Position numbers and translations under genes: made by a program
Notes under the pieces: model-generated
Seen by the model: only the letters and a program-made list of their open reading frames with translations
Told to the model about the DNA's origin: nothing
Database searches by the model: none
In this document: piece after piece, positions 30,090 to 41,049 of the stretch
How the letters are laid out: each line of letters starts with the position of its first letter
Numbering within the stretch: position 1 is the stretch's first letter
Origin: Paracoccaceae bacterium
GTDB lineage: Bacteria > Pseudomonadota > Alphaproteobacteria > Rhodobacterales > Rhodobacteraceae
Direction of reading: 5' to 3'
DNA: 53,217 bases
Assembly (NCBI GenBank): GCA_947476475.1
Contig: CANJQT010000011.1
Location: forward strand, 1-53,217

Positions 30090-30812
30090 TCAGAAAAGTG
30101 ATTGAAATAACCGCAGCGGCAGGAAGCGGCCAATGGTGAACAGCCAGGCGAATGGCGCTGGGAAGGTCGCGCAAAACCGGGTGCTGAGCATCAAGCGCAA
30201 AACACGCAACGCTGCGGCTTCCGGACTCATTAATTGCGGCATGCGGAACCGGTTCTTGGCTGTAAGGCGAGTCGCAATATACCCCGGATTGGCCAGTTGT
30301 ACCCGCACGCCGCTGCCGCGAAGGTCAACCCTAAGGTTTTCCGCAAGATGCATCAGCGCAGCCTTACTTGAGCCATAGCCGATCGCACCGGGAAGGCCGC
30401 GAAACCCAGCCAGCGATCCTATGAGCACGATATGCCCCGCCTTTCGCGCAACGAAAACGGGCACCAGATGCGACAACAGCCTTAGTGCGCCGATGTAATT
30501 GGCGTCTGCCATCGCCTCGGCCTGACCTGGTTGCCAGTCAAGTGCACTCATCGGGTCATAAAGCCCGGCGCAGTAGATCACACCATCAACCTCGCCAGCC
30601 AACGCTACGGCTTGCGTGACCGAGGCTGAATCAGTCACATCCATCACCACTGCCCGCAACTTGGGGTGGGAGGCGGAGAATGCCCTGAGCTTGGTGAGGT
30701 CGCGTGCCGAAACCACCACGCTCGCACCTTCCACCACCAGACAGGCGGCCAGCGCGCGCCCCAAGCCTTCACTTGCGCCAACGACCCAATAGGTCTTTCC
30801 TGCCAGCATCAT
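30090..30812 (-). CDS. Short-chain dehydrogenase/reductase
   Basis: 240 residues. The N-terminal VVGASEGLGRALA is the NAD(P)-binding glycine motif. A YGSSKAALM segment supplies the catalytic Tyr and Lys (YxxxK), with the Ser in LIGSLAGFRG. The C-terminal tail has a hydrophobic stretch (FAWLFTIGRFLPLRLF) that may touch the membrane. It is the last gene of the RpoE-linked operon and overlaps the DUF3833 gene by 4 nt. The corresponding R. sphaeroides operon also ends in an SDR as I recall; the substrate, possibly lipid-derived, is unknown. Confidence 0.85.
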   Translation of the reverse strand: MMLAGKTYWVVGASEGLGRALAACLVVEGASVVVSARDLTKLRAFSASHPKLRAVVMDVTDSASVTQAVALAGEVDGVIYCAGLYDPMSALDWQPGQAEAMADANYIGALRLLSHLVPVFVARKAGHIVLIGSLAGFRGLPGAIGYGSSKAALMHLAENLRVDLRGSGVRVQLANPGYIATRLTAKNRFRMPQLMSPEAAALRVLRLMLSTRFCATFPAPFAWLFTIGRFLPLRLFQSLF

Positions 30813-31360
30813 TGCACCGCTGGACGCATAGTGGCAATCAGCTCAGCGACCTTCACCCCGAATTTGCGCATCTCGGATTTGTTCATGATCGCCCCATTCG
30901 GCATCAGATAAAGCCAATCCGTCACGTCGAGCACATGGCCGCCGGCATCGTCCGGGAGCTTGATGCGATAGCTTAACTGCACAGTCGCCCCGCGTTGCCG
31001 GCCCTGCGCCAAACCCACGATATCAGGCGCGGTGGCCGTGAAGTTGCCGTCCTTCTCCATCTTCAGCGTCCAAAGTCGTTGCTGACTTGTGCCGTCGGCA
31101 TAGGTAAAATCCTCGCTGAGCGTCCCGCTGTCGCCTTGCCATTGCCCCTCCATCCGAGCCACAAAGCGGGAGGCCATCACGCCGGAAGGGCCAAAGATCA
31201 CGCCTTCTGAAACGATGGGGCCATTCAGCACGCGACGGACGTCGAACACAGGCTCTGTGGTGGCGTAAGTCTGCGGATCTTGGGCCGCAAAGCTGAAGAA
31301 CAACCGTTGCGCCAACAAGCCCAGAAGAGCAACCAGCGAGATCAGGAAGAGGAGTTTCAT
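30809..31360 (-). CDS. DUF3833-family lipocalin-like protein
   Basis: 183 residues with an N-terminal membrane anchor or signal (LLFLISLVALLGLLA). The rest has the DUF3833 pattern (FDVRRVLNGPIVSEGVIFGP; FTYADGTSQQRLWTLK; VLDVTDWLYLMPNGAIMNKS). It is probably exported or anchored on the outer face of the inner membrane. The function is unknown; lipocalin-like folds often hold lipids. It is coupled by 4-nt overlaps to the MFS carrier upstream and the SDR downstream, pointing to one lipid-linked task. Confidence 0.85.
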   Translation of the reverse strand: MKLLFLISLVALLGLLAQRLFFSFAAQDPQTYATTEPVFDVRRVLNGPIVSEGVIFGPSGVMASRFVARMEGQWQGDSGTLSEDFTYADGTSQQRLWTLKMEKDGNFTATAPDIVGLAQGRQRGATVQLSYRIKLPDDAGGHVLDVTDWLYLMPNGAIMNKSEMRKFGVKVAELIATMRPAVQ

Positions 31361-32616
31361 ATCGCGTCAGCCTTTCGCGGTAAGGCAATCACCAATGCGA
31401 TTGCCAGCGTTTTCAACAAACAGGGAAGAATGGCGTAGCTGGCATTCAATACCGCAATTGCCTGCGGGGAGTTCGGCCCACCCGGCACATAACCCACCCA
31501 ACCCAGAACGGGCAGCAGGGTGGCGGCGGCCAAGGCTAGGGCCATTTTGTTGGTGAATGACCAAAGCCCGAAACCCATTCCTGCAGGCAGATTTGCCGTA
31601 GCCAACATGGAAGCAAACAGTCCGGGAAGTATCACCATGTCCGCGCCAAGCGTCAGGCCGGATAGCGCCGAAATAGCCGCAAAGCCTAGGGCTTCTCCCT
31701 CGGGCAGGGCAGCCGCTCCTGCAAAGGCAGCAATCGAAAGACACATGCTGGGAATCAAAACCTTGACCGGTCCATACCGCGCTACAAGTCGCCACCAGAA
31801 AGGCGCGCTTATCCCTGCAGTCAGAAAAAACAGCACAAGAATGCCACCCGACCACTTGGCCAGACCAAGGCGGTCTTCGACGAAGAACAGAAACAGGCTG
31901 GACGTTATGGCAACGGGCAGGGTGTTGATCAACCCAAGTGCCAACAGCCTTCCGCCACCCGCATTCAGGAAATCTCTTATCGAAAAGCGCGGTGGTGCGG
32001 CGGGCTTTATAATCCATAGCCCCGTAGTCAACCAGCAAACCAACGCTCCGCCTGCTGCCAGAATTGCGCCAAATCCCGCATACCCCGCACGTTCTCCAAA
32101 AGCCCAGATCAGCAGCGAAGGCGCAGCACTTGCGACCACAATTCCGGCAAGGGTCGCTGCCTCTCGATATCCGGCCAACCGATAGTGATCTGTCGGCGCG
32201 CCTGTTTCTGCAATCGCAACGCCTTGGGCGTAAAACAGAATGCTGGCAAGACTATAGGACGTGAAAAGTAGGATCAGCGCTGCCACCAAGCCAGGCATTC
32301 CTGGCTGCAAACTGAAGACAGATGCAAACCCCGCCGACATTCCCAACAGCGCCAGCGCCGCAATCACACGACGATGGTCGCGAAAACGGTCGATCAGCAG
32401 GCCCAAAGCTGGATCTTGCACAAAATCAAGCACACGCAAACCAATCAGCAATATGCCGATACTTGAAAGGCTCATGCCCATAGATGCCGCAAAATGCGGC
32501 AGTTGCACATAAAGCGGCAACCCGGCAGCCGCCAGAAACCCCGAGAAAAGCATGACTGGCCTGGTCACCCCCGGTTTTGGCATGCTCACCCCGGCGCTGG
32601 CGGCTACGTTACGCAT
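31357..32616 (-). CDS. MFS carrier, GPH (melibiose-like) type
   Basis: 419 residues with about twelve membrane helices. The loop FVQDPALGLLIDRFRDHRR after helix 2 is the GPH/MFS motif. The second half (GLINTLPVAITSSLFLFFVEDRLGL; GLTLGADMVILPGLFASM) also matches the sugar:cation symporter-like group. In this operon it may move or flip a lipid-related molecule rather than sugar (inference). It overlaps the methyltransferase gene by 8 nt and the DUF3833 gene by 4 nt. Confidence 0.85.
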   Translation of the reverse strand: MRNVAASAGVSMPKPGVTRPVMLFSGFLAAAGLPLYVQLPHFAASMGMSLSSIGILLIGLRVLDFVQDPALGLLIDRFRDHRRVIAALALLGMSAGFASVFSLQPGMPGLVAALILLFTSYSLASILFYAQGVAIAETGAPTDHYRLAGYREAATLAGIVVASAAPSLLIWAFGERAGYAGFGAILAAGGALVCWLTTGLWIIKPAAPPRFSIRDFLNAGGGRLLALGLINTLPVAITSSLFLFFVEDRLGLAKWSGGILVLFFLTAGISAPFWWRLVARYGPVKVLIPSMCLSIAAFAGAAALPEGEALGFAAISALSGLTLGADMVILPGLFASMLATANLPAGMGFGLWSFTNKMALALAAATLLPVLGWVGYVPGGPNSPQAIAVLNASYAILPCLLKTLAIALVIALPRKADAI

Positions 32617-33769
32617 GTGTCAATTCAATTTGGACGACATCGGTGTGACCTTCAGCGAAGCTTGCTGCACAAGCTGCCAAATAGTAGCGCCAACCGCGCA
32701 TGAACGCCTCGCTATAGCCGATTTTGCGGATACGGCCGTGCTGCACGGCCATCCGCTGACCCCACATCCGGCAAGTCTGGGCATAGTCCTGCCCGAAGGC
32801 GAAACTGTCCTGTACCTTCAAGCCCGCGCGCTGGGCCTGATTGGAAATAATGCTGTTTGAAAGCAGCATGCCTCCTGGGAAAGTGTAGTGCCGGATGAAA
32901 TCGGACGATCTTCGATAGGTTGGAAAATAGTCATCCGGCACGGTAATCACCTGCAGCAACGCGCGCCCGCCCGGTTTCAGCCGATCCCGCAGGGTCGTGA
33001 AGTAAGTCGGCCAATAGGCCTCGCCCACCGCTTCGATCATCTCGATGGACACGATATTGTCGAACCGGCCCTGTGCTGTGCGATAGTCTTGAAGCAAGAT
33101 CTCGGCGCGACCGTCTAGCCGAGCATCGGCATAGCCCTTCTGGCTGGGTGAGATAGTAAGCCCGGTGACCCTGCGCCCTTCATTTGCAGCGCGCTCCGCA
33201 AAGGCACCCCAGCCGCAGCCGATTTCCAGGACCTGTTCGGCCTCGGTCAAGCGGCCAAGAATTCGATCATATTTTCGCCGCTGCGCGCGGACCAGGTCTG
33301 TGTCGCCGGGCGCGAACAAAGCCGAGGAGTAGCTCATCTCTTCGTCGAGCCAAAGCTGATAGAATTCATTGCCTACATCATAATGCGCCCGGATGTTTCT
33401 GGCTGATCCGCGCTTGGAGTTTGCGCGCAGCACGCCGTTGATCAGCCGAAACTTTAATCCCGCCCAGAACCCGGCAAACACATAGTTGCGAAGATGATCA
33501 AAGTTGCGCAGGGCCAATATGGTCAGGCTTTCGATTGACGGGCTTTCCCACAACCCCGCGACATAGGTCTCGCCCAAGCCAATATCGCCGCGCGCCATCG
33601 TCGCCGTCACCACCGCCCAATCGTGCAGCTCCAACTCAGCCTCTGGCAGGCCTGTGCCAAAGTCATGAACGTCGCCTTCCGGTGTGACAAGGCGCAAACT
33701 ACCATGTTGGATACCAGCGCAAGTATCAAGAAAGTCACGCTTTACGCGCTTGGTGAACATGGTTGTCAT
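32609..33769 (-). CDS. Cyclopropane-fatty-acyl-phospholipid synthase-type methyltransferase
   Basis: SAM-dependent methyltransferase acting on double bonds of phospholipid acyl chains. It has 386 residues from the ATG at 33769. The SAM site is VLEIGCGWGAFAERAA. The family blocks HYDVGNEFYQLWLDEEMSYS, MIEAVGEAYWPTYF and YRRSSDFIRHYTFPGGML are present. In R. sphaeroides a Cfa-type gene of the RpoE/ChrR regulon takes part in the singlet-oxygen response, and related enzymes make methylated/furan fatty acids. Whether this one cyclopropanates or only methylates cannot be told here. It overlaps the DUF1365 gene by 4 nt. Confidence 0.9.
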   Translation of the reverse strand: MTTMFTKRVKRDFLDTCAGIQHGSLRLVTPEGDVHDFGTGLPEAELELHDWAVVTATMARGDIGLGETYVAGLWESPSIESLTILALRNFDHLRNYVFAGFWAGLKFRLINGVLRANSKRGSARNIRAHYDVGNEFYQLWLDEEMSYSSALFAPGDTDLVRAQRRKYDRILGRLTEAEQVLEIGCGWGAFAERAANEGRRVTGLTISPSQKGYADARLDGRAEILLQDYRTAQGRFDNIVSIEMIEAVGEAYWPTYFTTLRDRLKPGGRALLQVITVPDDYFPTYRRSSDFIRHYTFPGGMLLSNSIISNQAQRAGLKVQDSFAFGQDYAQTCRMWGQRMAVQHGRIRKIGYSEAFMRGWRYYLAACAASFAEGHTDVVQIELTHA

Positions 33770-34515
33770 GGGCTTACCTCTTGGTCGGGGGCTGGGGGGC
33801 GATCGCGGTACTTTGCACCCTTGGCCCGAAGCAGGAATGCGTTCCAAATGATCAGCGCCATGGTGCGCAACGGTCCGAAAGGGCGGCGCAAACCAGCGCG
33901 CAGGATCGCCGCATTGCTTAACGGCGCCAATGTACCCGTCAGCGTGGCGTTCACGCCTTCGCCGCCATTCTTGTGGTTGATGCGGATCACGATTTGGGTT
34001 TCGGTTACTTTGAACTGAAAGTGGTAACCTCCTGCGATGTCCTGAAACGGCGAGACGTGAAATATCTTGTGGGCGAAGATCACATCCTGGGGGCCAATCG
34101 GCGCAAAACCTTCTAGATGGCAGACATAGCTGTGCCTTTCGCCAAAGGTATTGGTCACCTCAGCTATCACAGCACGCAAGCCGCCCTCAGCAGTCGCCAG
34201 CCAAAAGCTGACAGGGTTGAAGGCGTAACCCAGAAACCGCGCCTGGGTCAGTAACCGCAGGTCAAATGCTGCCAAACCGCGCGCCACCAGCAACTCACGC
34301 GCCCAGGCCGCACCACGTCCTTGACCGGGCGGCCCGCCATGATCACGGTCGTGCACCGAAGTCAGGTTCAGCCGGTTGCGCGAAAACAGAAGCGGGCCAG
34401 CGGCAACCTCGGGGTCGATCAGCACCATGTCGACTCGATAGCTGAAACTATGGTTAAGCCCGCCGTGCCGGACATGTGTTGTACGGGCGGCCATGGATTG
34501 CGGTGCTGCGTTCAC
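33766..34515 (-). CDS. DUF1365-family protein
   Basis: 249 residues without a signal peptide. The motifs HVRHGGLNHSFSYRVDMVLID, LTQARFLGYAFNPVSFWLA and AEVTNTFGERHSYV are the DUF1365 hallmark. The biochemical function is unknown. The family nearly always sits between an FAD-dependent desaturase-like oxidoreductase and a Cfa-type methyltransferase, as here, so it probably assists in acyl-chain modification. In R. sphaeroides a protein of this operon is reported to influence ChrR turnover under singlet oxygen (from memory). 4-nt overlaps on both sides. Confidence 0.9.
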   Translation of the reverse strand: MNAAPQSMAARTTHVRHGGLNHSFSYRVDMVLIDPEVAAGPLLFSRNRLNLTSVHDRDHGGPPGQGRGAAWARELLVARGLAAFDLRLLTQARFLGYAFNPVSFWLATAEGGLRAVIAEVTNTFGERHSYVCHLEGFAPIGPQDVIFAHKIFHVSPFQDIAGGYHFQFKVTETQIVIRINHKNGGEGVNATLTGTLAPLSNAAILRAGLRRPFGPLRTMALIIWNAFLLRAKGAKYRDRPPAPDQEVSP

Positions 34516-35792
34516 GCCAACACCGGGTCAAGCTGGCGGGCCACACGCACAGCACTTGCAAAGCCATCCTCATGGAACCCATGCCGCATATATGCGCCGG
34601 TAAACCAGGTGCTGTTCCGCCCCTGAATCCGCGCCAGATCCTTCTGCGCGGCCAAAGCCTTTCCGTCAAATACGGGGTGTCGAAAGTTGTTCTCGTCATA
34701 GATCAGATCCTCAGCGATCGACGCGTCAGGGTTCAGCGACAGATAGAGCGGATCGCTTTGAGGGATGTTCTGCAAGCGGTTCATCCAATATGTCACCCCC
34801 ACCTTCGCGTTTGTCGCGTTGCCGTCTGACATGTAATTCCATGCTGACCAGCAGCGTTTGCGCCGGGGCATCTGCGTCGAATCCCGGTGTAGCACCGCGC
34901 GGTTGTCCTGATAACGGATTGCTGACAACGCTTCCCTTTCGGCAGGAGAGGGGTCTTGCAGTAGCCGCAAGGCCAAGTCGGAATGGCAGGCAAAAACTAC
35001 CTGATCAAAGCGCTCAACCGTGGCTCCTTCCGCCTTTATCAGTACACTACCCGCCAGGCGCGTAACCGCCTGAACTGGCGTAGCTGGCCGCAGATCCACG
35101 CGGCGTCGTCGCAAGTCCTGCTCAAGCCGATGTACATATTGAATGCTGCCACCCTCGACCGTCCACCACTGATGCTGACCCTTTGTGCTCATCAAGGCGT
35201 GGTTGCTGAAAAACCGCAAAAGGCTTCGGGCTGGGAAGGAATTGACCTCATTGGGCGGCGTGGACCAGATCGCGCCGCAGATCGGCAACAGATAGTAGCG
35301 ACTGAACCAATCCCCCAAGCCCAACTCCCGTACAAGTTCAGCCGTGGTCATGTCATCTGTTTTGACCGCCGCCTGTGAATGACGATTGAACCGGTCGATG
35401 TCTCGCAGCATCCGCAGGAACTGTGGTCGTGCGATGTTGCGGCGCTGGCCAAAAATTCCGCCCAAGTCGCGCAATGCATATTCCACCGCGCCGCCGTTGA
35501 TGGAGGCCCCAAAGCTCATGTCGCTTTTCATTACCGGCACATCAAGATCGGCAAACATCCGGGTAAGATGCGGATAATTGGCATAATTGAAAACGATGAA
35601 CCCGGTATCCACCGGCTGATCACCATGCAAACCCGCCGTCACCGTGCGGGCATGGCCGCCCAGCCGGGGATCTGCCTCGAAAAGTGTCACTTTGTACTGC
35701 GGCGACAAGAGGCGAGCAGCTGCCATACCTGAAATACCGGCGCCGACTATGGCGATATTCTGACGAAAGGCGACAGGGGCATCGAAGGACAT
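34512..35792 (-). CDS. FAD-dependent amine-oxidase/desaturase-like oxidoreductase
   Basis: 426 residues. The N-terminal IAIVGAGISGMAAARLL and the following FEADPRLGGHART form the FAD-binding Rossmann fold. Further blocks are DTGFIVFNYANYPHL, WWTVEGGSIQYVHRLEQDL and NSTWFTGAYMRHGFHEDGF. It is probably the desaturase/oxidase of an unusual-fatty-acid pathway; furan fatty acid synthesis in R. sphaeroides uses such an enzyme, but I cannot assign the exact step. It is the first gene of a six-gene operon and has GGAG five bases before the ATG. An RpoE-type promoter lies 25-54 bases upstream. Confidence 0.85.
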   Translation of the reverse strand: MSFDAPVAFRQNIAIVGAGISGMAAARLLSPQYKVTLFEADPRLGGHARTVTAGLHGDQPVDTGFIVFNYANYPHLTRMFADLDVPVMKSDMSFGASINGGAVEYALRDLGGIFGQRRNIARPQFLRMLRDIDRFNRHSQAAVKTDDMTTAELVRELGLGDWFSRYYLLPICGAIWSTPPNEVNSFPARSLLRFFSNHALMSTKGQHQWWTVEGGSIQYVHRLEQDLRRRRVDLRPATPVQAVTRLAGSVLIKAEGATVERFDQVVFACHSDLALRLLQDPSPAEREALSAIRYQDNRAVLHRDSTQMPRRKRCWSAWNYMSDGNATNAKVGVTYWMNRLQNIPQSDPLYLSLNPDASIAEDLIYDENNFRHPVFDGKALAAQKDLARIQGRNSTWFTGAYMRHGFHEDGFASAVRVARQLDPVLA

Positions 35793-35816
35793 GCAGGCTC
35801 CAAGGTTTCTTCTCTG

Positions 35817-35846
35817 AGATTACGGGCGGAAATCGGGTCTGGATCA
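35817..35846 (-). promoter_or_regulatory. RpoE-type promoter for the fatty-acid operon
   Basis: On the minus strand, TGATCC (35846-35841), an 18-bp spacer and TAATCT (35822-35817). TGATCC is the -35 element known for R. sphaeroides RpoE. It ends 24 bases before the oxidoreductase ATG. Confidence 0.75.
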
Positions 35847-35855
35847 AAAAAAAAG

Positions 35856-35885
35856 TGATCCGGATTTATCGCCGCTGCGTAGGCA
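35856..35885 (+). promoter_or_regulatory. RpoE-type autoregulatory promoter for rpoE-chrR
   Basis: TGATCC (35856-35861), an 18-bp spacer and TAGGCA (35880-35885). Its -35 is a mirror copy of the leftward promoter's -35, with a 9-bp A-rich spacer between them. The leader to the rpoE start is about 110 nt. Confidence 0.65.
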
Positions 35886-35994
35886 GTACATGTTGACACA
35901 AGAATGCATATCCAATGTTCTGACCCTGTCGGTCGCCGCCCTTCTGCAAGGCCGCGTGTCGGGGATGAATCTTGCGTCATACAAGGGAGCAGAC

Positions 35995-36558
35995 GTGACA
36001 GACCGATTGCCGCGCCCGCTGTCGCAGCAAACCACCTGGCTTCTGGACGTCCGCGACAATCGCAACAGGGCAGCCTTTGCGCAACTGTTCGATTTCTATG
36101 CTCCACGCCTGAAGGGGATGCTGCTGCGTGCAGGACTGCAGTCGGGTCAGGCCGAAGACGTGGTTCAAGAGGTGATGTTGGCGATTTGGCGCAAAGCGGA
36201 TCAATTCGATCCCGCCCGCGCACAGGCTTCGGCTTGGATCTATCGTATCGCCCGCAATCGACAGATCGACATGATCAGGCTCGAAAATCGGCCCCTGCCG
36301 GACGAACTTGTGGCAGCAGAAGAAGAAAGCATCGACGACGCGGCCCAAGTACTGGCGTTGGACCAGGAAGGCACTCAACTTCGCGCAGCCCTGATCCGAC
36401 TTGCCCCCGAACAGCGTACTGTGATCGAACAGGCCTATATGGGCGAACTGTCGCACAGTGAAATCACCGCTCAGACCGGGCTGCCATTAGGCACCATCAA
36501 ATCACGCATTCGGCTGGCTCTGGACCGGTTGCGGCACGACTTGAGAGACTTGCGCTGA
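35995..36558 (+). CDS. rpoE: ECF sigma factor RpoE (singlet-oxygen response)
   Basis: Alternative sigma factor of the ECF11 type, released from ChrR by singlet oxygen. It has 187 residues from a GTG start that has GGGAG five bases upstream, where the family N-terminus TDRLPRPLSQQT begins. The frame is open further up to 35890, with an ATG at 35965 as an alternative. Region 2 is FDFYAPRLKGMLLRAG...AEDVVQEVMLAIWRKA with ARNRQIDMIR. Region 4 is LAPEQRTVIEQAYMGELSHSE and LPLGTIKSRIRLAL. chrR starts one base after its stop. Confidence 0.94.
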   Translation: MTDRLPRPLSQQTTWLLDVRDNRNRAAFAQLFDFYAPRLKGMLLRAGLQSGQAEDVVQEVMLAIWRKADQFDPARAQASAWIYRIARNRQIDMIRLENRPLPDELVAAEEESIDDAAQVLALDQEGTQLRAALIRLAPEQRTVIEQAYMGELSHSEITAQTGLPLGTIKSRIRLALDRLRHDLRDLR

Positions 36559-36559
36559 C

Positions 36560-37198
36560 ATGACCGAGATAACCCACCATTTGCCCGAAAATCTGATCAT
36601 CGCTTATGCCGCATGTAGGCTGGGTCATGCCTTCAGCGTCGCAGTAGCCGCACATGTGTCGCTGTGCATGGAGTGCCGCGCCCGGCTGGCAGCACACGAA
36701 CACGCAGGCGGCGCGGTACTGGAGGCGCTACCGAAGGAAACCGTCAGCCACGAACTGAAATTGCGTACCATGGCCGAACTCTCAGCGCCCGCCAGAGTTG
36801 GGCTGCCCCCCCCAGAGCATGCGGGCATCTATCCTGGCGCGGTGATGGCCGCACTTAAAGGCCGCCCACCAAGATGGCGCGCCCTTGGTGCAGGCATCAG
36901 GCAATGCATTCTGACCGAAGACCTTGAAGGTTCGCTGCGGCTCTTGCACATCCCGCCGGCACAGGGGGTGCCTGATCATGGCCATGGCGGGCTGGAACTG
37001 ACGCTGGTTTTGCAAGGCAGCTTCAGCGATGAAACCGGGCGTTTCGGCGCAGGCGACATTCAAGTCGCCACCGAGGATATGGCACACAGTCCCATCGCAG
37101 GCGGCGGCATGCCATGTGTCTGCCTTGCCGCAACCGACGCTCCCTTGAACTTTCGCGGCTGGCTGCCTCGCATGCTACAGCCGATCTTCCGGATCTAG
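36560..37198 (+). CDS. chrR: Zinc-dependent anti-sigma factor ChrR
   Basis: Holds RpoE inactive until singlet oxygen or related stress. It has 212 residues. The N-terminal anti-sigma domain has the zinc ligands: His6/7, then AAHVSLCMECR with H32, C36 and C39. The C-terminal cupin domain has PDHGHGGLELTLVLQG (HxHx3E) and a later His in DMAHSP, matching the second zinc site of R. sphaeroides ChrR. It is co-transcribed with rpoE (1-nt gap), so sigma and anti-sigma are made together. Confidence 0.95.
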   Translation: MTEITHHLPENLIIAYAACRLGHAFSVAVAAHVSLCMECRARLAAHEHAGGAVLEALPKETVSHELKLRTMAELSAPARVGLPPPEHAGIYPGAVMAALKGRPPRWRALGAGIRQCILTEDLEGSLRLLHIPPAQGVPDHGHGGLELTLVLQGSFSDETGRFGAGDIQVATEDMAHSPIAGGGMPCVCLAATDAPLNFRGWLPRMLQPIFRI

Positions 37199-37492: not shown

Positions 37493-38197
37493 TCAGATCA
37501 TCCGAATTGCGTCTCTCTTGACGGAAAGCATATAGCCGCGGCGGGTGATGTTTTTGACCAGAAGCTCTGCCACCATCTGATTTCCCAACGCGTCGCGCAG
37601 CCGCTTGATGCGCATGGCGCCTGAAGCTTCGTCGCAATCAGCCTCTTTCTTGCCAGAGATCACGGATTCGATCTGTGCGCCTGTCAGGATATCGTCATCC
37701 ATTCTGGCCTCTGCCAGAACCGAAAGGGTTTCGATGGCGGACTCGGTCAGCTTGAACTCCATATCGTTCAGCACCACCGCATTTTCGCTTCGGCTGATGA
37801 TCAACGACGACACCTGGATGCCCTGCTTCTGGATGGCCTCCATCCTGCGGTTCAGCGACAACAGCATGACGAGAAAGACCAGAGCGGCGATCAAAAGCGC
37901 CGTAGCAAATACCAAGAGCACGAAGATAATGGTGCGGTAGCTGATCAGCACTTCCGAAAATGCGGTGCCGGACTGGGCGAGCACCTCAAGCAGCCTGATC
38001 TGGTCACCACTGGTCAGCGCGTCGTTTTCTACAAAGATCCGTTCGACCCGGGCGTTGAAAGCATTGGCGTCCGGAAGGGAAAAGAACAGGACTGAGGCAG
38101 AGGCGAGAAGAATTGCCACTATTGCTGCAATGCCCCAGACCACCACGCGATTGCCTGACTTCAGGGCAAGCCCTGCGGGATGTTCGCTGTCAGACAC
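37493..38197 (-). CDS. Two-helix membrane protein with C-terminal winged-helix domain
   Basis: About 234 residues. TM1 (about 17-40) and TM2 (about 88-114) flank a periplasmic loop of about 47 residues. A basic cytoplasmic linker (LNRRMEAIQKQ) leads to a domain resembling the OmpR/PhoB winged helix: NDMEFKLTESAIETLSVLAE, then IKRLRDALGNQ and LVKNITRRGYMLSV. This order (membrane first, DNA-binding domain last) is the reverse of ToxR/CadC. Start: the GTG at 38197 has GGAG seven bases upstream; a GTG at 38203 is too close to it. It lies 18 nt after a small exported protein gene. The target genes are unknown. Confidence 0.7.
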   Translation of the reverse strand: MSDSEHPAGLALKSGNRVVVWGIAAIVAILLASASVLFFSLPDANAFNARVERIFVENDALTSGDQIRLLEVLAQSGTAFSEVLISYRTIIFVLLVFATALLIAALVFLVMLLSLNRRMEAIQKQGIQVSSLIISRSENAVVLNDMEFKLTESAIETLSVLAEARMDDDILTGAQIESVISGKKEADCDEASGAMRIKRLRDALGNQMVAELLVKNITRRGYMLSVKRDAIRMI

Positions 38198-38215
38198 AGT
38201 CACTCTCCGCCAAGT

Positions 38216-38458
38216 TCAGTTCGAGGGGATGATGGCTGTGATGGCCAGAAGCGTCCAGCCCTGTTGGGCCAGAATCGGCTGCAAGATGGCGGCTGCGGCC
38301 GCCTTAGAGGCGCAGGCATCGTCCGGCAAACTGATTTCGCCGGCCTGAAGCTGCAAGGGGTCATCCTGCTTGGCTTTGTAGCGCACTGTGCAGTCAGCAC
38401 TGGCCGCAGAAGCAAGGGCGCAAAACAGGGCAAAAGAGAGGGCAAGGCGAGTCATCAT
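38216..38458 (-). CDS. Small exported protein, unknown function
   Basis: About 80 residues. A signal peptide (TRLALSFALFCALASAASA, cleavage about residue 22) precedes a mature part of about 58 residues with two cysteines (ADCTVRY and DDACASKAA), so a disulfide is possible. I do not recognise the family. The gene lies just upstream of the membrane winged-helix gene on the same strand (about 18 nt), so they are probably co-transcribed. A role as periplasmic partner of that protein is only a guess. The 37199-37492 gap downstream of the pair holds no convincing gene. Confidence 0.6.
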   Translation of the reverse strand: MMTRLALSFALFCALASAASADCTVRYKAKQDDPLQLQAGEISLPDDACASKAAAAAILQPILAQQGWTLLAITAIIPSN

Positions 38459-38635
38459 GCGCGGAAAGTTGCGCGTAGCTGCGCCGCTAATCAATAGCAA
38501 AGCGTCCACAGCTGGCTTTGCCGACGCAGTTATCGGATAGCGGGCGCGTGTTATTGCCCTTTTTCGCCCTTTGCCTCCACCTCCAGCGTATCGGTGCCAC
38601 GGGCTACGGTCGCACCACAAAGAAAGGATTTTGGC

Positions 38636-39085
38636 ATGTCACGTCAGTTGATCGCACTTGCAACCGCCGCCGCCATAGCGATTTCGGGTTTCGCTGCTGT
38701 TCCCGCTGAAGCCAAGGGAAAGGACGCCATCAAGATATTGCTGGGTGTTGCTGCCGTCGGGCTGCTGCTCAACCAGATGAATCAGGGCAAAGCGCGCGCG
38801 TCGACCGTTTTGCCCCCGCCAGATCGCTGGGACAACGAATATGACGATGGCTACAGCCAGCCCACCTCAGGCAGGTTGATCCCGTCAGAATGTCTGATGG
38901 ATGTCACCGTGAATGGCAGGTTGCGCGAGGTTGTCTCCTCGCGCTGTGCGCGCGAATTGGGCTTCGCCCAGCAACTGCCCGCAGATTGCGCCTTTGAGGT
39001 GCGCACCGGTGCCGGATCGCGGTCGGTGTATGGGCCGCAATGCCTGCGCGACTATGGATATCGGATCGAAGCCGCACGCTACTGA
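38636..39085 (+). CDS. Secreted hypothetical protein
   Basis: 149 residues with a signal peptide (LIALATAAAIAISGFAAVPAEA), then a second hydrophobic stretch (IKILLGVAAVGLLLNQM). The Cys-containing C-terminal domain follows (IPSECLMDV; SSRCARELGF; ADCAFEVRTG; YGPQCLRDYGYRI). Its four cysteines suggest two disulfides in the periplasm. I do not recognise a named family. AAAGGA lies eight bases before the ATG. A strong terminator follows, so it is its own unit, divergent from the small exported protein gene. Confidence 0.75.
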   Translation: MSRQLIALATAAAIAISGFAAVPAEAKGKDAIKILLGVAAVGLLLNQMNQGKARASTVLPPPDRWDNEYDDGYSQPTSGRLIPSECLMDVTVNGRLREVVSSRCARELGFAQQLPADCAFEVRTGAGSRSVYGPQCLRDYGYRIEAARY

Positions 39086-39209: not shown

Positions 39210-39836
39210 ATGAGCGACGCACCCGATTTCCACTTCGAAGAGGCAGCCCGGCGGCGGTGCCTGACCCTCGTCGCAGGCGTCGACGAGGCCGGTCGAGGCC
39301 CTTTGTGTGGCCCCGTGGTTGCTGCGGCAGTGGTGTTGGACCCGACGCGCATACCCGACGGGCTGAACGACTCCAAGAAGCTGAGCGCAATACGCAGGGC
39401 CACTTTGTTCGACCAGATCATGGCGCAGGCAGAGGTGGGGGTGGGCGAGGCCAGTCCCGCCGAGATCGACGCGATCAATATCCTGCGCGCCAGCCATCTG
39501 GCGATGGAGCGCGCCATTGCCGCGCTGCCCCGCCCACCCGCCCATGTGCTGATCGATGGCAACATGATCCCGCGCGGACTGACACTTTCCGCTGAAGCAA
39601 TCGTAGGGGGTGATGGGCGATCCCTGTCGATTGCCGCCGCTTCTATTGTTGCCAAGGTGACGCGCGACCGGATCATGGTGGATTTGGCGCAACAGCACCC
39701 CGGCTATGGCTGGGCAAAAAACGCCGGATACCCAACGAAGGACCACCTGTTGGCCCTTCAAAATCTTGGCGTGACCCCTTTCCATAGGCGATCGTTCCGA
39801 CCTATCCACAACATCTTGTGCAAGGGAAATTTGTAA
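39210..39836 (+). CDS. rnhB: Ribonuclease HII
   Basis: Removes ribonucleotides and RNA primers from DNA. It has 208 residues from the ATG at 39210, which is preceded by GGAAAG; the frame upstream overlaps a terminator. The catalytic acidic residues are visible in VAGVDEAGRGPLCGPV (Asp-Glu), VLIDGNMIP (Asp) and the later region. SIAAASIVAKVTRDR and HPGYGWAKNAGYPTKDH are typical. It precedes ccrM, an order common in alphaproteobacteria. Confidence 0.95.
   Translation: MSDAPDFHFEEAARRRCLTLVAGVDEAGRGPLCGPVVAAAVVLDPTRIPDGLNDSKKLSAIRRATLFDQIMAQAEVGVGEASPAEIDAINILRASHLAMERAIAALPRPPAHVLIDGNMIPRGLTLSAEAIVGGDGRSLSIAAASIVAKVTRDRIMVDLAQQHPGYGWAKNAGYPTKDHLLALQNLGVTPFHRRSFRPIHNILCKGNL

Positions 39837-39888: not shown

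Positions 39889-41049
<1,161 letters not shown>

Follow-up and report, generated by a model that had tools for sequence, protein, structure and literature searches.

The window, i.e., the whole analysed stretch of 53,217 nucleotides from a Paracoccaceae bacterium, harbors on its minus strand two small adjacent genes read in the same direction. The downstream one (37493..38203), recognized from its open reading frame, alignment, and structural model, starts with GTG and encodes a membrane-tethered winged-helix protein of 236 amino acids, referred to here as WH. The upstream one (38216..38458), outlined by alignment and model, encodes an exported protein of 80 amino acids (SP) with the invariant cysteines C23 and C49. 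On the plus strand, a divergent gene, assigned by open reading frame and profile, codes for another exported protein, LP (38636..39085), and is followed by rnhB (39210..39836) and ccrM (39925..41049). The intergenic region of SP and LP carries two palindromes, TGTTATCSGATAACA and TGTTATTGAATAACA, representing a candidate operator.

The original prediction placed two membrane helices and a periplasmic loop ahead of a C-terminal winged helix in WH, and this layout is borne out by hydropathy, charge pattern, and model. The hydropathy maxima (centres of the averaging windows at residues 25–37 and 89–112) delimit the first transmembrane helix (residues 20–43, 38075..38146, minus strand; model helix 9–42) and the second one (residues 90–117, 37853..37936, minus strand), which is part of a long model helix spanning residues 66–126. 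The intervening loop (residues 44–89, 37937..38074, minus strand) bears a charge of −4 and residues 117–130 a charge of +2, which fits the location of both termini in the cytoplasm and of the loop in the periplasm, the membrane side being assigned from charge; residues 1–20 are neutral, and the N-terminus is uninformative for topology. As many as 17 residues of this putative periplasmic loop are invariant in 81 sequences.

The C-terminal part of WH (residues 131–231, 37511..37813, minus strand; recognition helix at about 192–206) folds in the AlphaFold2 model as a winged helix, as expected, and judging from this model it is a domain of the OmpR/PhoB type. The best Foldseek match of the model is the DNA-binding domain of ToxR (8b4b, E 2.6e-4), and VIA-align returned for approximately the same residues Z scores of 12.1 with RpaA, 11.8 with CovR, 11.1 with CadC (5ju7), and 10.2 with ToxR (8b4b), the solved structures closest to it being the DNA-binding domains of ToxR, BaeR, RpaA, CovR, and CadC. 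The model, built on an 81-row alignment, has a pLDDT of 72 and a pTM of 0.45 as a whole; ten-residue pLDDT means in the winged helix are 72–87 (60 at residues 211–220), the linker 121–130 has a pLDDT of 52, and the placement of the winged helix relative to the membrane part is uncertain at this pTM. A search of PDB sequences with WH returned no useful match (best E 0.24), and two public plasmid records encoding WH annotate it as a hypothetical protein.

A winged helix of this kind might serve as a protein-interaction module at the membrane and not bind DNA at all, and the Trans_reg_C result for the window protein (19.9 bits in Pfam, below the gathering score of 26.2) could be read in this way. 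Against such a role, which is considered highly improbable, stands the distribution of conservation: it peaks in the recognition helix (0.93), the loop and the wing come next (0.87 each), and none of 81 sequences departs from R198, K200, R201, or R203. All 81 members match Trans_reg_C at E ≤0.1 (best 7.4e-6). Just before the recognition helix, C190 (37634–37636) is also invariant in these 81 sequences; in a separate comparison of 28 sequences it is kept in 27 and replaced by alanine in one relative. This cytoplasmic cysteine is a possible second, redox input.

The N-terminus of SP resembles a signal peptide, as judged by inspection of the translation, and C23 and C49 are invariant in 79 sequences. 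The protein is modelled as a small beta-beta-alpha-beta domain (ten-residue pLDDT means of 88–95 over residues 21–80), for which Foldseek gave no match at E ≤0.001; the best VIA Z score was 6.3, and no family is claimed. Sequence searches were similarly uninformative: the best PDB hit was an unrelated-looking dihydroorotase (E 0.6), the window protein matched no family in Pfam or NCBIfam, and Pfam matches of its relatives were weak, scattered, and confined to single relatives. The expectation of an exported protein of about 80 residues with a cysteine pair, encoded upstream of WH in the same direction, proved correct except for the distance between the genes, given as 18 nt and actually amounting to 12 nt (38204–38215).

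In the named genome collection, at least 583 stretches encode a WH relative, of which the best 80 were used. SP was read in 78 of these 80 loci, in 52 of the 78 in a form longer than the short one of the window, and a candidate WH start codon precedes the end of SP in 51 of the 52 loci with the longer form. One of the two exceptions is a contig end, in a genome (G422) with parts of SP on two contigs. In the other (L102, genome G421), WH is found on another contig devoid of SP, with SP, LP, rnhB, and the two palindromes remaining as a group elsewhere (L102, L156); since this record is a metagenome assembly, WH may have truly relocated, or the separation may be an artefact of binning. Here the palindromes accompany SP and LP and are separated from WH, so action in trans is possible.

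The same picture emerged from other samples. Of 61 genomes, including that of the window, 28 encode WH; these belong without exception to the window's own family, and SP adjoins WH directly upstream in every one of them. In an even sample of the class, five of 385 genomes possess WH, again all of this family, and within the family, represented by genomes at least 95% complete, WH is present in 57 of 70. The joint conservation of SP and WH, without which the original prediction would have failed, is confirmed, along with the reversed domain order of WH and its exported partner, and WH is restricted to a family which includes Rhodobacter and Roseovarius. The SP profile had no match at E ≤1 in nine WH-lacking family genomes (two of the nine less than 90% complete); an earlier SP search returned weak matches (E 0.1–0.75) in five WH-lacking family genomes.

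The divergent side of the locus is conserved as well. The LP profile matched in 70 of the best 80 loci, always on the opposite strand and upstream of WH by no more than 1.7 kb; four cysteines are present in the last 110 residues of LP in 65 of these 70 loci, and some LP relatives are rich in histidine (up to a fraction of 0.15). In eight loci with SP and WH the profile failed to detect LP, and each of them keeps at least one palindrome. The neighbors rnhB and ccrM were recorded in 73 and 72 of the best 80 loci, respectively, some of which are cut by contig ends. Downstream of WH the search for conserved genes was fruitless, the largest cluster comprising 11 of the 80 loci. As stated in the original prediction, WH lies beside chrR and is transcribed toward it (chrR ends at 37198 and WH at 37493). 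A functional link of WH to chrR and rpoE was rejected: neither gene occurs in any of the best 80 loci, and chrR is an accidental neighbor in the window. Positions 30090–37198 hold an ECF sigma factor and ChrR beside a block whose members, judged from their translations, we take to be genes of the SDR, DUF3833-like, MFS, cyclopropane-fatty-acid synthase, DUF1365-like, and FAD-dependent types; this region resembles the singlet-oxygen sigmaE–ChrR island of Rhodobacter.

The palindrome was first spotted by eye in the window and afterwards generalised to relatives. Site A (38527..38543, minus strand CCGCTATCCGATAACTG, score 19.3) and site B (38484..38500, minus strand TTGCTATTGATTAGCGG, score 10.8, degenerate in this genome) are 43 bp apart. 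The core TATCSGATA was present with at most one mismatch in 59 of 74 SP/LP regions, as compared with 2.9 expected from plain and 2.65 from dinucleotide shuffles. As SP escaped tblastn in L113, L114, L118, L121, and L130, these five loci were not counted among the 74; each of them possesses an exact TATCSGATA. In all 74 regions the best site reached at least 12.3 on a matrix which was trained on the very regions it scores; the TATCSGATA counts and the dinucleotide shuffles (best score below 4.1 in 95% of cases, maximum 12.7) are the fairer tests. A second site scored above 5 in 68 of the 74 regions and in 23 of the 28 loci from the first search (the two sets have some organisms in common); 66 of the 68 exceed the plain-shuffle maximum of 7.1, although the dinucleotide-shuffle maximum is 12.7.

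The sites have a 7-1-7 layout whose middle letter is C or G, in most cases with G or A after it, and their spacing follows a ladder of 10.5 bp: most pairs are 32–33 or 42–44 bp apart, and 22 bp (L040), 53 bp (L051), and 64–65 bp (L092 and L041) occur rarely. Only 0.03% of random sets of five spacings were equally well phased, in a test framed after the spacings were known, with two of the five classes represented by one locus each and with second sites scoring 5 or less omitted (six in the 74 regions and five in the 28 loci, the five including a site spaced by 60 bp and another by 22 bp). A ladder with the step of one helical turn is the pattern that two dimers seated on one DNA face would leave. 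Residue 197 of WH, which is either M or T, seems to vary along with the second site: the site-B core ATTGATT accompanies M in 8 of 14 cases and T in none of 60 (raw counts, ancestry uncorrected); yet the WH of genome G034 also has M197 and only a weak second site (3.4). The regulatory role proposed for the pair in the original prediction, that of a one-component system, is strengthened by the twin palindromes; its periplasmic sensing is conjectural, and as an interpretation the prediction is partly supported.

Similar sites were found elsewhere in the genomes. The pattern TGNTATBSRATANCA matched in 42 of 70 family genomes at 78 unique places, against three control matches; in the window's own genome it matched nowhere, missing the genome's own sites A and B. 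Three pattern searches yielded 71 site regions for examination, 16 at the own locus and 55 at others, which were clustered by chaining through any shared gene. A cluster of 13 regions is associated with an exported DUF5333 protein of the nuo operon, read in ten of them (Pfam E 7e-39 for one); palindromes precede this protein in L175, L195, L202, L204, L229, L237, L239, and L244. DUF5333 was not found in the window's own genome and is not mentioned in the open-access literature searched. Further clusters include an OmpA-type glycine-zipper lipoprotein (six regions, read in five, Pfam-supported in one), coproporphyrinogen oxidase (three regions, Pfam-supported in one), a LolA protein (two regions, identified through Pfam in a single one), and the meaB/DUF3108 intergenic region (two regions, DUF3108 read in one by Pfam). 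The cluster of L149, L191, L193, L205, L209, and L241 is mixed, L209 coming from a WH-lacking genome. Behind the palindromes of L193, L205, and L241 there are small exported proteins, the first part of which resembles LP; that of L193 has a peptidoglycan-binding domain (Pfam). Among the single sites, several are followed by proteins whose N-termini resemble signal peptides, and others lie in or before genes without an envelope role. Overall, the twin phased palindromes between SP and LP, together with the similar sites ahead of DUF5333 and other exported-protein genes in WH-bearing genomes, are the new finding reported here.

The occurrence of the sites was also compared with that of WH. Counted over all places, an exact palindrome was present in 39 of 57 family genomes with WH and in 3 of 13 without it (p 0.004, shared ancestry uncorrected); upon exclusion of the own-locus sites the figures became 30 of 57 and 3 of 13 (p 0.07, likewise uncorrected), a weak contrast. 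Of the WH-bearing genomes, 17 are devoid of an exact palindrome; DUF5333 is encoded in 14 of the 17, only seven of these having a promoter site above chance, and in four of the 13 WH-lacking family genomes, none of the four with a promoter site (ancestry again uncorrected). Outside the family, 27 of 113 genomes of any size matched, 24 of the 27 being smaller than 2.8 Mb; at 2.8 Mb or more, a cut chosen after the results, the match was found in 3 of 55 genomes (4 of 65 with the cut at 2.4 Mb). At nine rnhB loci of WH-lacking genomes there is neither LP nor a palindrome (best score 5.2; at L161 only about 320 bases precede rnhB).

We regard WH as the probable owner of the palindromes, despite the fact that factors of the OmpR family often bind direct repeats, as stated in the available part of PMC9275681. 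CenR was set aside as the owner on account of its published direct-repeat motif TGA-N8-TGA (PMC9275681, available part), the palindrome consensus being of another form. The main rival is a Fur-family regulator, Zur or a paralogue, in which case SP, WH, LP, and the envelope genes would be its targets and WH would have different sites. It owes this position to the half-sites GTTA...TAAC which Zur boxes share with the palindromes: many of the 7-1-7 sites between SP and LP fit the general Zur core GTTA-N5-TAAC, as given in the available passages of PMC4176598, and others possess GCTA or GATA half-sites. Zur-type strings score 10.5–14.9 on the SP/LP site matrix, sites preceding ZnuA (L178) and a gene of the Fur family (L177) are likewise picked up by a looser pattern, L186 clustering with them, and in one of the three WH-lacking genomes with a match (G019) the site found with the stricter pattern is in the ZnuA promoter (L233). 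The histidine-rich LP relatives would be in line with a zinc-related role, too.

The ownership by Zur is nevertheless unlikely in our opinion. The zinc-gene sites found with the looser pattern have the centres TCT, AGT, and GTT, in contrast to the C/G centre between SP and LP. Unlike those of the Zur regulon, the other recurrent targets are mostly exported proteins, not zinc uptake genes, and to our knowledge most of them have no known zinc role. Moreover, only three of the 13 WH-lacking family genomes have a site anywhere, and the seven of the 13 checked at rnhB lack it there. Since the Zur-type boxes (L177, L178, L186, and L233) and the SP/LP operator share half-sites, two regulators may overlap in recognition within this family.

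With WH as the probable binder of the palindromes, we propose the following mechanism. WH would be a one-component transcription factor anchored by its N-terminal helical hairpin in the inner membrane and exposing the winged helix to the cytoplasm, and SP, encoded just before WH and probably in the same operon, would be its exported partner. SP would dock on the periplasmic loop of WH, which is strongly conserved, and report an envelope condition such as folding, disulfide state, or a component of the outer membrane. The signal would run down the long second helix and alter the DNA binding of the WH dimer; such dimers, bound to the two palindromes on one DNA face, would control the WH operon itself and the divergent LP gene. 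Single palindromes may bring under WH control a small, lineage-variable set of envelope genes, including those of DUF5333 in the nuo operon, the OmpA-type lipoprotein, LolA, and DUF3108. We infer the contact of SP with WH, DNA binding by WH, the signal, and the sense of control, be it activation or repression. We slightly favor the view that the pair works like a mirror image of co-component systems of the ToxR/ToxS type, with its own genes, LP, and a small envelope regulon under its control. The fuller version, in which a soluble exported protein gates a hairpin-tethered C-terminal winged-helix factor acting via phased twin palindromes and governing an envelope regulon unnamed in the literature searched (LP, DUF5333, the OmpA-type lipoprotein, and LolA) across the Rhodobacter/Roseovarius family, is tentative and somewhat less likely than not.

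The part assigned to SP in this scheme has a competitor: SP could be an output, a small envelope protein made from the regulator's operon, with WH itself doing the sensing, by way of its periplasmic loop or of the membrane. Such an arrangement would agree with the lower conservation of SP (mean column identity of 50%, against 80% in WH), with the presence of LP, also exported, under the same candidate operator, and with the fact that SP and LP stay with the operator where WH has moved away (G421). The constancy of the SP–WH arrangement (78 of the best 80 loci, often with overlapping frames), compared with the detection of LP in 70 of the 80, argues against it, and SP as an output is deemed rather doubtful. 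All in all, the pair is real, conserved, and furnished with a candidate operator of its own, and a co-component-like envelope system of reversed topology is its most likely identity.

The pair may watch over the cell envelope, and envelope monitoring in alphaproteobacteria, among which many lack homologues of the envelope regulators known from model bacteria (PMC9275681, available part), is poorly known; the pair occurs in 57 of the 70 sampled genomes of its family. If the proposed mechanism is true, the combination of a membrane-tethered winged-helix factor and an exported partner also occurs in the orientation opposite to that of ToxR. The concrete candidate operator and the list of targets make this idea directly testable. 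The open-access literature searched, with the network paper PMC4344238 covered in passages, contained no description of the pair, and the reversed arrangement is not described in the available passages of the transmembrane-regulator survey PMC10269533, which mention alphaproteobacterial LytTR regulators with membrane regions.

With the CadC/ToxR-like regulators (PMC10269533 and PMC5430869, available passages), WH shares the inner-membrane one-component design and a winged helix that aligns with theirs. These proteins are built of an N-terminal cytoplasmic winged helix, one membrane helix, and a C-terminal periplasmic domain, a layout that WH does not conform to: its domain order is reversed, and its periplasmic part is a loop of 46 residues instead of a folded C-terminal domain. 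CenKR of Rhodobacter sphaeroides is comparable in its OmpR-type winged helix, its envelope genes, and its origin from a related bacterium; unlike WH, CenR is a response regulator phosphorylated by a kinase and recognizing a direct repeat (PMC9275681, available part). In ToxR/ToxS and VtrA/VtrC, as portrayed in the available passages of PMC9214523, a tethered winged-helix regulator is combined with a small periplasmic co-protein encoded by an adjacent, often overlapping gene. WH and SP form a similar two-gene cassette, side by side and in one direction (78 of the best 80 loci and 28 of 28 genomes), albeit one that is near-constant in a single environmental family, unlike these virulence cassettes. 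The partner gene is located upstream of the regulator, not downstream as in the co-component systems, and SP looks like a cleaved exported protein, unlike their co-proteins. VtrC-like co-proteins have a lipocalin-like fold; SP is modelled as beta-beta-alpha-beta, with no Foldseek match at E ≤0.001. An obligate periplasmic heterodimer is a further trait of co-component systems, which SP and WH might form as well. In contrast to ToxR, the winged helix of WH is C-terminal, behind a two-helix hairpin. Since both the gene order and the domain order are reversed, WH and SP are not classed as a member of the co-component group; by analogy, ToxR/ToxS and VtrA/VtrC appear to be the closest systems in working principle.
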